DNA of 32,238 bases from Chlorobiota bacterium (GTDB lineage: Bacteria; Bacteroidota; Ignavibacteria; OLB7): positions 80,858-113,095 of the forward strand of contig JAGWAZ010000006.1 in the NCBI GenBank assembly GCA_021296135.1, in the 5' to 3' direction. The notes beneath the pieces were generated by a model that saw only the letters and a list, made by a program, of their open reading frames with translations, made no database searches and was not told the DNA's origin. The translations under genes and the position numbers were made by a program. Below, in pieces: positions 26,968-30,924 of the stretch. Position 1 is the first letter of the stretch. Each line of letters opens with the position of its first letter.

Positions 26968-28275
26968 TCAGTCAGAAGAGTCTATCCGATGCCGTAACTC
27001 CGCAATTCGATTCCGCAATTCAACATAATCACGCGAGACGTTCAGCTTACGGGCCTCACTGATAGTCGTTTCATTGTTCGGCCCAGACATCTCTTTTTGA
27101 CCCGAGGAATCTTCAGGTTCCTGAGCATTAGCGGTTGCGGCCTCCATCCTTTGTCGCAACTGGTCCGCCTGTCTCGAGCTTCTCTGTGTTTCCGGATCTC
27201 TTGTCTGAGCATGTGGTTCTGATGCTGTGGTCGAAGGCTCTTCGACCTCTATCAGTTCTTCGGTATCAATAACAATTTCAGGAGCGACCAGCGAAGATGC
27301 TCTCGGATCAACGGCCTGGCCGATTTCCTCTTCAGTTTCCGTGCCCACAGATGATGGAACAGCCTCAAGAGTCTCAGGAGGTCCGGTTGTAGGAGTCTCT
27401 GATGATGTCTTCTCGGGTTTGCGGGTAAACCATGTTGCAAGACTGATGATTACAATTGCTGCCAGAGCGATCAGGAGTATTCCCCTCCAGCTTTTCAACA
27501 TTTCTGACAACTCCCGTTCAGTCCCTGCCACATCTGTGTCAGTCGATCTGTTTGTCTCAGTCGGGCTATCGGCAATACTAAAGTCAGAGTTGACTTTTGA
27601 TTGAAACATCTGCTCGTCTTTCGTTGCTTCCTCATCGTCGCCTGCCCTTCTACGCACTTCGGCCCGTGCCATATAATCATCTGGTCCGAGAGGTGCTTTC
27701 AAATAGATCATTGCAAGCGAATCTTTCCCCTCGCGTGCATAGAGAATACCAAGAATTGAAGCTGCTCTTCGTGCTGATGCGCTGCTATCCTTTGAAGTCG
27801 CCCTTGCAGCGCTCAGTTGTTCTTTTGCAAGCTCCGGGAGGCCCTGCTCCAGGGAGAGTAGCCCGCGGTGATAATCTGTCTCGGCACGGTTTAGCTCATC
27901 CCAAACAAACGTATGAACAACCAGTCGGTTGGAATACGGACGCCACAGAGTCGAATATCCGAGACGACCGTTCTTCTGAATTCTCAGTATTCGAATTCCG
28001 TCCGAACCATCACGTGAAAGGGATGTCTTGATGCCATCAGGGCTTGTTATTACTCCCTCATCAGACTCCAATGATGAAAAGAAACGAATAACAAGTGTTG
28101 ATGAGTCGCTTTTGGTAAGGTCAACCTCATAGCCAACGGAATCACTCAATTGAATAATGAAGTCATTCCCAATCCAGAGTGTGTCCTTTACCTGCACCCC
28201 TTGTGAAAGCGCTGTCACACTGCTGATCAGAACAATGAGAAGCAACGTTGTAAACCAGTGAATTCCTTTATACAT
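26968..28275 (-). CDS. Single-pass membrane protein with periplasmic helical-repeat domain and acidic cytoplasmic tail (FimV/HubP-like layout)
   Basis: 435 residues, no named family. Seen in order: a signal peptide at 1-24; a beta-rich region at about 28-125; a helical segment at about 127-215 with TPR-like spacing (ETDYHRGLLSLEQGLPELAKEQLSAA, ASILGILYAREGKDSLAMIYL); a low-complexity Ser/Thr/Asp linker; one membrane helix at 264-283 followed by RK; and a long Pro/Glu/Thr-rich acidic tail ending in a helix, VELRNRIAELRHRID. So the N-terminal half is periplasmic and the tail cytosolic. FimV/HubP polar-hub proteins share this topology, and HubP helps place FlhF, but there is no LysM domain here and the resemblance is one of layout only. 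The start overlaps the FlhF-like gene by 8 bases, with GGAGG 6 bases upstream, so the two are cotranscribed and coupled. Confidence 0.85.
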   Translation of the reverse strand: MYKGIHWFTTLLLIVLISSVTALSQGVQVKDTLWIGNDFIIQLSDSVGYEVDLTKSDSSTLVIRFFSSLESDEGVITSPDGIKTSLSRDGSDGIRILRIQKNGRLGYSTLWRPYSNRLVVHTFVWDELNRAETDYHRGLLSLEQGLPELAKEQLSAARATSKDSSASARRAASILGILYAREGKDSLAMIYLKAPLGPDDYMARAEVRRRAGDDEEATKDEQMFQSKVNSDFSIADSPTETNRSTDTDVAGTERELSEMLKSWRGILLIALAAIVIISLATWFTRKPEKTSSETPTTGPPETLEAVPSSVGTETEEEIGQAVDPRASSLVAPEIVIDTEELIEVEEPSTTASEPHAQTRDPETQRSSRQADQLRQRMEAATANAQEPEDSSGQKEMSGPNNETTISEARKLNVSRDYVELRNRIAELRHRIDSSD

Positions 28276-29218
28276 GGCTTGCCTCCGGGTTATGCTCTAC
28301 ATTAGGAAGTCCTTCTACGGCCCAGGCGCCAGCGTTGACCTCGCGGGAGGAAAGAAGATCATCAGGGATTATCGTTCCGGTTGCGAGGTAGCCAAGTGGG
28401 AGACCTATCCAGCTGAGTGAGGAAATCATTGGACCGAGCGAGGGAGCTTCATCAAGCTTTGTGAATGTTATATAGTCGATCTTTTCTCCGAGGAAAAGAG
28501 CGGCTGTATCCTGGATTGCCCGACTACTCATCGTTGATGAAAGGACAAGGTGAATCTCATTTGGACTTGCAGCCGTCATAAAATCTTCAAGCTCCTTTCG
28601 GGCTCCTCGGTCTGACCGACCGGCCGTATCAATAACTACGAGATCAATATCGGATCCTTCTATCAAGGATTCCACCTCATTTGTTTCAAAGGCTATTCCT
28701 ACCGGAACTTTCAGAATATCTGCAATCGTCTGTACTCCCTCTACCGAGCCGATTTTATATGTATCACATGAGATAATTTTTACACGTAATCCCTGACTCA
28801 GCAAGGCGCGGACTGCAAGCTTGTACATCATAGTTGTTTTTCCGGCACCGGAAGAACCGACCAGCGCTATGATGTAAGGCCGCTCACCATGTTCACGGCG
28901 ACGAATTCTCGGAAGAGCTTCTTCCATCGTTCGAATGCCGGCATTGATTTCGGCTATAGCAGCAAGTTGCAATTCCTCCTGGCTCAAATCCCGTCCTCCT
29001 TTGGCCTGGAAGATCGATCTCGTGATTTGAGCGGCGTAGCGACGCTCAAAATCATTGGAGACTAAGTGAGAGAAGAGTTTACGATAAGAGTTCGGCAGAG
29101 AAGAGACCTGTTCAGAACGCATCCAATCGTGCAGGTCGCCAACAAGCTCCTCGATACGTGCAAGCCGAGATTCGATCGCAGTTGAGTAAAGTGCAGTGTT
29201 GTTAAATTGGTCAATCAT
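28268..29218 (-). CDS. flhF: SRP-family GTPase, FlhF type
   Basis: 316 residues. The N domain (about 50-110) is followed by the G domain with G1 GSSGAGKTT at 121-129, DTYKIGSVEG at 152-161 (FlhF has DTYRIGAVEQ; FtsY and Ffh have different residues here), G3 DTAGRS at 197-202, G4 TKLDE at 253-257 and the closing TGTIIPDDL at 280-288. It lacks the long basic B domain of classical FlhF (about 370-500 residues); its first 45 residues are acidic to neutral. In flagellated bacteria FlhF sets the number and position of flagella at a pole. No other flagellar gene is visible here. It is coupled to the downstream membrane protein. The role could be flagellar, with genes elsewhere, or placement of another envelope machine. 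Confidence 0.83.
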   Translation of the reverse strand: MIDQFNNTALYSTAIESRLARIEELVGDLHDWMRSEQVSSLPNSYRKLFSHLVSNDFERRYAAQITRSIFQAKGGRDLSQEELQLAAIAEINAGIRTMEEALPRIRRREHGERPYIIALVGSSGAGKTTMMYKLAVRALLSQGLRVKIISCDTYKIGSVEGVQTIADILKVPVGIAFETNEVESLIEGSDIDLVVIDTAGRSDRGARKELEDFMTAASPNEIHLVLSSTMSSRAIQDTAALFLGEKIDYITFTKLDEAPSLGPMISSLSWIGLPLGYLATGTIIPDDLLSSREVNAGAWAVEGLPNVEHNPEASHV

Positions 29219-29369: not shown

Positions 29370-29478
29370 GATTGCCATTTTTCACTTGCGCATCGATGAG
29401 TAGATGTTGTAATCTCGGTTCAGGAAAACCAGGATCGTGACATCATTTGTGACCCCGGTATCAATTGATCAATTATCT

Positions 29479-30924
29479 ATGAACACGGTTGTATTGCAAT
29501 TCAATAAAATAATAGTTCTTCTTACCATCCTCTCATTTGTAGGGGTTCTTCCAGGATGCAGGTCATTCGATGAGGCAATCAAATCTGTTATCGATAATAC
29601 ACCTGATGCTGATTCGAATCGGGTCTATATGACCGGCACTCGCCCCTACTCCGAATCGGATGGTAACAATCTTCTATTGAACGTCTGGCGGATCAACTCC
29701 GATCCATTTCCCGATTCCGTCCTGGTCTATGCACGAGTGATGGATGGTCAGGGAAACTTTATCTCGAACCTTGCACCTCCCTACTATCAGGGATCGAAAG
29801 ACTATAAGGAAATATGGGGTGGTGTGAAGGAGCAGATCGGCGATGGAGGAAAGGTCTTTGAGATTGATGACTTTGATGTCCGTGAGTTCAGCGACAAAGA
29901 TGGCATTCCGTTTGAGATAGCCTTGGCACTCGACTACTCCGGTTCGATGGGGTCGAACATCACCTTCCTTGAGGATGCTGCCGTCACGTTCATCAACCTG
30001 AAGCTTCCTCAAGACCGTATCACGATTGTCAAGTTTGACGACACACCCAGGCTTGTTGTACCACCAACGCAGTCGAAACAGGAATTGATTGCGCAGTACG
30101 GACGGACCGGGCTCAACGGATTTGGTGCCTACACCGCTCTTTATGCGGCTGGAAAGCTGGGAGGAGAGCAGATTATCGAGGCTCCTGAGACACATCCGCG
30201 TGCTCTGATTCTCTTTACTGACGGGGAAGATAACTCAAGCGCAATTACCTCATCGGAGCTCTATGATTTCTGCAAGACGAACAATATCCCTGTTTTTGCC
30301 GTTGCATTCGGAGCTGTCAACAAGGAGATATTGGCTAATCTTGCTTCCGGTACTGGAGGGCGTTTTTATCAGACAAACGATCCGAAAGAGCTTGAGGCGA
30401 TCTTCAAGGATATCTATCTGAGTTTGCGTAACTACTATCTGATTCATTATAGGCCACCGAAAGTCGATGGTAAGCATATTATCACGATTGCTTTGAATCC
30501 ACCGGGTGGTGGCTCTACAATCGGTGCAACGGCCGTTTATGAGAAGTATGGGTATAGCTCCAAGGATACTATTCTCACACCGCCACCAGATCTTCCTAAC
30601 AGAGTTCTCTTTGCCTACAATAGTGCCGAACTGCTTCCGGGCGCCATGGAACATATTCAACCCTGGGTTGAGGAGATGAAGCGCAATTCACGACTGGTAG
30701 TTGAGATCGGGGGGCATACCGATTCGGTTGGCACCTTCGACTACAATCAGGAACTCTCCGAACGACGCGCTATGGCTGTTTGTGACGTGTTCAAATCTTC
30801 CGGTATTGAAGAGAGGCGATTGCGTTGTATAGGATATGGAGAGTTGCGTCCCAAGACCACAAACACGACCGAAGAGGGAAGAAGTATGAACCGCCGTACT
30901 GAGTTCAAGATTCTACGGCAGTGA
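29479..30924 (+). CDS. VWA-domain lipoprotein with C-terminal OmpA peptidoglycan-binding domain
   Basis: 481 residues from the ATG at 29479. A GTG at 29437 is in frame but would put 14 extra residues before the signal, so I reject it. The signal (KIIVLLTILSFVGVLPG) ends in a lipobox L-P-G-C27. A beta-rich region follows, then a von Willebrand A domain (about 145-335) with an intact MIDAS: DYSGS, a Thr in the GAYTAL loop and the Asp of FTDGEDN. The last 110 residues are an OmpA-like domain (LFAYNSAELLPGA, GGHTDSVGTFDYNQELSERRA), with the Asp and Arg that bind diaminopimelate present. So the protein should be lipid-anchored in the outer membrane, clamp to peptidoglycan and expose or hold a metal-dependent adhesion domain in the periplasm. 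It converges with the beta-barrel gene, with 5 bases between stops. Confidence 0.92.
   Translation: MNTVVLQFNKIIVLLTILSFVGVLPGCRSFDEAIKSVIDNTPDADSNRVYMTGTRPYSESDGNNLLLNVWRINSDPFPDSVLVYARVMDGQGNFISNLAPPYYQGSKDYKEIWGGVKEQIGDGGKVFEIDDFDVREFSDKDGIPFEIALALDYSGSMGSNITFLEDAAVTFINLKLPQDRITIVKFDDTPRLVVPPTQSKQELIAQYGRTGLNGFGAYTALYAAGKLGGEQIIEAPETHPRALILFTDGEDNSSAITSSELYDFCKTNNIPVFAVAFGAVNKEILANLASGTGGRFYQTNDPKELEAIFKDIYLSLRNYYLIHYRPPKVDGKHIITIALNPPGGGSTIGATAVYEKYGYSSKDTILTPPPDLPNRVLFAYNSAELLPGAMEHIQPWVEEMKRNSRLVVEIGGHTDSVGTFDYNQELSERRAMAVCDVFKSSGIEERRLRCIGYGELRPKTTNTTEEGRSMNRRTEFKILRQ

Follow-up and report, generated by a model that had tools for sequence, protein, structure and literature searches.

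An FlhF-derived GTPase and its predicted envelope-spanning partner are conserved in a bacterial family without flagella

Introduction

FlhF is usually treated as a flagellar protein, and in other bacteria it is activated by the N-terminal DQAxxLR helix of FlhG. Two further proteins serve here for comparison, SwrB, a DUF6115-type protein, and PilQ, whose B domains are AMIN domains. Shewanella FlhF contacts FliG through its B domain and the landmark HubP through its NG domain (PMC11236974), and FipA, a DUF2802 protein, binds FlhF and brings it to the pole (PMC11620751). Here we describe two overlapping genes within a 32,238-nucleotide stretch of DNA from a Chlorobiota bacterium (the window), which encode a GTPase of the FlhF type and a protein, here called X, that is predicted to span the envelope. 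The two genes form a real, conserved module that is under selection and comes from flagellar genes, in bacteria that have no flagellum.

Results

A two-gene unit conserved across the family

Both genes lie on the minus strand, where the gene for the GTPase (28268..29218, 316 aa, N and G domains only as judged from Pfam SRP54, NCBIfam FlhF and a tree) is followed downstream by that for X (26968..28275, 435 aa). A first-pass annotation of the window had described two open reading frames overlapping by 8 bases with no flagellar genes nearby, and it was right on both points, the overlap ATGTATAA occupying 28268..28275 (minus strand) and no flagellar gene being found around the pair. The host, a Bacteroidota/Chlorobiota lineage close to Kapabacteria (genome 2.86 Mb, 99.8% complete), shares this unit with the other members of its family: the pair, its gene order and its 8-bp overlap recur in 5/5 genomes from three genera, so that pairing is maintained in non-flagellated relatives, and the GTPase and X are the only genes common to all five loci. 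Within the family, identity to the window proteins is 63-64% for the GTPase and 34-38% for X. The neighbour of the pair in the window is a VWA-OmpA lipoprotein gene (29437-30924, plus strand), divergent from the GTPase gene, an arrangement seen in G000 and G004 (L038 10448-11965) and not in G001 or G003.

The GTPase carries a Pfam SRP54 GTPase domain at residues 115-288 (1.2e-27), and its best NCBIfam match is FlhF (TIGR03499 equivalog), at 95.7 bits against a curated cut-off of 174.15. Because this match begins only at profile position 116 the B domain must be missing, which accounts for a score so far under the cut-off, and alignment with full-length FlhFs likewise revealed no counterpart of the N-terminal B domain. 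The P-loop GSSGAGKTT (residues 121-129; 28832..28858, minus strand) is intact and, in the family alignment, invariant save for residue 122. The DTYKIG motif (residues 152-157; 28748..28765, minus strand) is invariant in all five family GTPases, and DTYK[IV]G is found in related FlhFs too. The earlier description of an FlhF-type GTPase with DTYKIG and without a B domain is therefore borne out, also by the tree, in which the protein branches with FlhFs. Two further SRP GTPases of the host genome branch with FtsY and Ffh, and we reject the GTPase as a second FtsY. In its NG domain, its DTYKIG motif and its descent from the FlhFs of the class the protein resembles FlhF, from which it differs in lacking the FliG-binding B domain, in falling under the TIGR03499 cut-off and in residing in a host with neither FlhG nor a flagellum.

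Protein X is a predicted envelope-spanning anchor with a conserved tail motif

The predicted layout of X is a signal peptide, a periplasmic AMIN-like domain with TPRs, one transmembrane segment and a variable tail of 150 residues. In AlphaFold models of 13 X homologs (pLDDT 87) a beta domain is predicted with confidence, and six helices paired into TPR-like hairpins come after it; the beta domain modelled alone reaches pLDDT 90. For this putative AMIN-like domain (residues about 26-125; 27901..28200, minus strand) the best PDB match is PilQ B2 (TM 0.62, E 0.022), which it resembles in fold but with 13% identity and without the secretin domain of PilQ; Pfam AMIN gives a weak match, below cut-off, in one X family member (0.009). 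The three TPR-like helical hairpins (residues about 130-229; 27589..27888, minus strand) are matched by Pfam TPR in 5/13 homologs, and Foldseek also returns TPR structures. When the whole N-terminal part is searched, the top Foldseek match by E-value is a Campylobacter periplasmic flagellar scaffold (9e-4), yet the superposition is poor (TMq 0.27, rmsd 26.8), and the likeness to the PflA/PflB motor scaffold, a beta domain and TPRs in the periplasm, is thus a lead only. The single transmembrane segment (residues 265-283; 27427..27483, minus strand; hydropathy 2.58) is followed by basic residues.

The first-pass annotation had proposed a FimV/HubP-like partner with a signal peptide, helical repeats, a single transmembrane segment and an acidic tail. 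The first three features stand, with the TPRs preceding the transmembrane segment. The acidity holds in the window (32 D/E vs 16 K/R) but not in G002 and G004, where the tail is about neutral (21 D/E vs 20 K/R), and it is consequently not the conserved feature of X. As for FimV/HubP, the topology fits and homology does not. Like HubP, FimV and TspA, X has a signal peptide, a periplasmic part, one transmembrane segment and a long cytoplasmic tail, and it would anchor the NG domain of FlhF; unlike them, it has an AMIN-like domain instead of LysM, its TPRs are periplasmic rather than C-terminal and cytoplasmic, and its tail is not acidic in all relatives. Pfam and NCBIfam profiles gave no match to a LysM or FimV domain in X, and we reject X as a FimV/HubP homolog.

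What is conserved in the tail is two short C-terminal motifs, the remainder varying strongly. Motif 1, RQADQLRQRMEAAT (residues 368-381; 27133..27174, minus strand), has Q369, A370, R376 and E378 invariant in the family. Its QADQLRQ was considered as a stand-in for the DQAxxLR activator of FlhG and rejected, since on a profile of 13 FlhG N-termini the family proteins rank 42nd to 302nd of 541. Motif 2, ETTISEARKLNVSRDYVELRNRIAEL (residues 402-427; 26995..27072, minus strand), is a putative GTPase-binding site. We built a profile from the C-terminal motif of the FipA/SwrB-like proteins of the class and applied it to the final 60 residues of each of 612 ORFs. No unrelated ORF scores as high as X of the window and that of one relative, and each of the other three is outscored by a single unrelated ORF. 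HMMER gives no significant match to the motif for any of the five family X proteins and these five are not independent, for which reasons we regard it as likely, and not more than likely, to be FipA/SwrB-like. No match to Pfam DUF2802 or DUF6115 was found in X itself, and among the residues that FipA needs for binding, it seems that only the Leu has a conserved equivalent in X, with positions counted by hand. X shares with FipA (DUF2802) and SwrB (DUF6115) a single transmembrane segment, a cytoplasmic C-terminal part, a similar C-terminal motif and, in relatives (G097, G116), a link to the flhF operon, and it differs from both in its large periplasmic AMIN-like and TPR part and in having no Pfam match.

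The modelled AMIN-like fold and TPRs of the periplasmic part would also suit a protein acting on the cell wall. In that case a wall enzyme or surface protein would be brought in by the AMIN-like domain, and X would be controlled from the cytoplasm by the GTPase as a switch, at division for instance. The divergent lipoprotein gene beside the pair in G000 and G004 speaks for such a role, but in G001 and G003 the pair lacks this neighbour and no amidase gene is linked to the pair, and we consider this explanation quite improbable.

The pair probably derives from the two ends of a flagellar operon

In the tree the family GTPases form one clade (100/100), whose sister group (98/97) consists of the FlhFs from families f6, f15 and f19. 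These families are flagellated and, by X profile search, are exactly those that carry X homologs: 9/9 sampled members with FHIPEP or FliF have one, and the same search found none in the flagellum-less f6 members G122 and G132. One more match, in G074 (f2), is weak and broken by stops. The genes run in the order flhF, flhG, a small gene, sigma, HDOD, histidine kinase and X in G097 and G116. Elsewhere among the flagellates of the class, the slot from the kinase to flgF is taken by a single-TM DUF2802/DUF6115-like (FipA/SwrB-like) protein, the best of which matches DUF2802 at 1.6e-5 and DUF6115 at 6e-4, both below gathering. Since the operon ends in X and proteins in this slot are FipA/SwrB-like, the pair appears to be what is left of the operon's two ends after loss of the genes between them, a loss that we infer from gene order.

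This ancestry bears on a further reading, that the GTPase is a third SRP-like targeting factor with X as its membrane receptor, the two helping to deliver or secrete certain envelope or exported proteins and having no part in positioning. The NG domain of FlhF is indeed common to Ffh and FtsY, and as a precedent FlhF of Bacillus cereus is reported to support hemolysin secretion (PMC7218170). As FtsY and Ffh are both present in the host, this would have to be an added route. However, GTPase and X descend from a flagellar operon in which their homologs are positional or assembly factors, and the large periplasmic anchor of X would be superfluous for a simple receptor, which leaves the SRP-like role unlikely.

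The flagellum is gone and the pair is under selection

Genome-wide profile searches found neither FHIPEP (FlhA) nor FliF in the host genome or in the four other family genomes, and the same searches succeed in E. coli, B. subtilis and flagellated relatives. With both absent, the GTPase is not the sole FlhF of a flagellar operon elsewhere in the genome. A flagellar-type FlhG is likewise lacking in 5/5 family genomes, where the best matches (1e-15 to 1e-17) are at the general ParA/MinD level, compared with 1e-70 to 1e-118 in flagellated relatives. Among 149 class genomes full-length FlhF tracks FHIPEP (50 genomes), with one draft exception (G009, with FliF), and the family of the window is the only group found with an FlhF and neither FHIPEP nor FliF. 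No GTPase of this B-domain-less type was detected elsewhere in the phylum (396 genomes), and a scan of genome contigs with the family alignment gave no match. In the part of the literature that our search covered, we found no report of FlhF kept without flagella.

All five family genomes are drafts (95-100% complete) and the C-terminal tail of X is highly variable, as might be expected if the pair were a decaying relic of recent flagellum loss, or if flagellar genes were merely missing from the assemblies. Yet the same genes are missing from all five in spite of this completeness, and the open reading frames, the P-loop and the gene overlap are intact across three genera. Furthermore, between the closest pair (G002 and G004) the GTPase genes differ at 33 nucleotides and the proteins at no amino acid (dS 0.15, dN 0), with dN/dS near 0.3 for X. 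The GTPase is, by this substitution pattern, under strong purifying selection, and relic or assembly gap alike we hold to be extremely improbable.

Discussion

We propose that the pair is, rather probably, the landmark half of a polar-flagellum positioning machinery that was retained and repurposed after the flagellum was lost. With that loss, the flhF-flhG-sigma-HDOD-kinase-X operon would have shed its middle genes, leaving its ends to overlap, and the overlap may keep GTPase and X in step. X would act as the envelope-spanning anchor. Its periplasmic part would comprise the TPRs and the AMIN-like domain, the latter probably binding peptidoglycan or an envelope protein, and one transmembrane segment would cross the inner membrane. 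The long flexible tail, ending in the FipA/SwrB-like motif, would recruit the NG domain of the GTPase. The GTPase has kept this GTP-switched domain, the landmark side of FlhF, and has given up the B domain, which elsewhere provides the grip on FliG. Held at the site marked by X, probably the pole or the division site, the GTPase would direct where a non-flagellar envelope process takes place, or license it. Against this model stands the loss from the family of FlhG, the known GTPase activator of FlhF.

The pair probably now positions something else. A client in a pilus or type II secretion system is rejected, as no T2SSE ATPase scored over the cut-off in the family. Type IX secretion is a possible client; its protein SprA is present in the host, but as SprA is found in every class member tested it provides no specific link to the pair. 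More tentatively, and with some doubt on our part, the repurposed pair may be a self-standing two-protein pole-positioning system, built from the landmark half of FlhF, that places a non-flagellar envelope machine. If that is true, the positioning module of the flagellum is able to function without it. The retention of the NG domain and its membrane partner minus flagellum, FlhG and FliG-binding domain points to a non-flagellar use of this module, and would make the pair a natural system in which the landmark function of FlhF is reduced to a minimum. It also suggests that flagellates of the Bacteroidota-Chlorobiota possess a FipA/SwrB-like partner of FlhF.

Several flagellar loci of the class depart from the common pattern. 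G009 (L022, L039, L068) has a full-length FlhF, FliF and X and neither FHIPEP nor a flagellar-type FlhG, which may reflect either an assembly gap or a second case of flagellum loss, caught at an earlier stage. G028 (L069, L104) and G142 (L076, L105) have a complete FHIPEP, a divergent FlhF and X homologs that do not carry the usual C-terminal motif; G028, a single contig, gave no FliF match. In L070, L071, L074, L075, L069 and L076, X is followed by genes for a small protein with a C-terminus like a T9SS sorting tail and for a PorV-like outer membrane protein, a link that is absent in the family of the window. The FlhGs of f19 (L071 14096-14878, L074 4601-5413, L106 3196-3969) do not have the N-terminal DQAxxLR helix, with start codons taken as called. 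Finally, a conserved hydrophobic protein of 78-91 aa is encoded between flhG and the sigma gene in many flagellates of the class (L091 804-1076, L092 6701-6976, L096 953-1189, L101 6914-7150).
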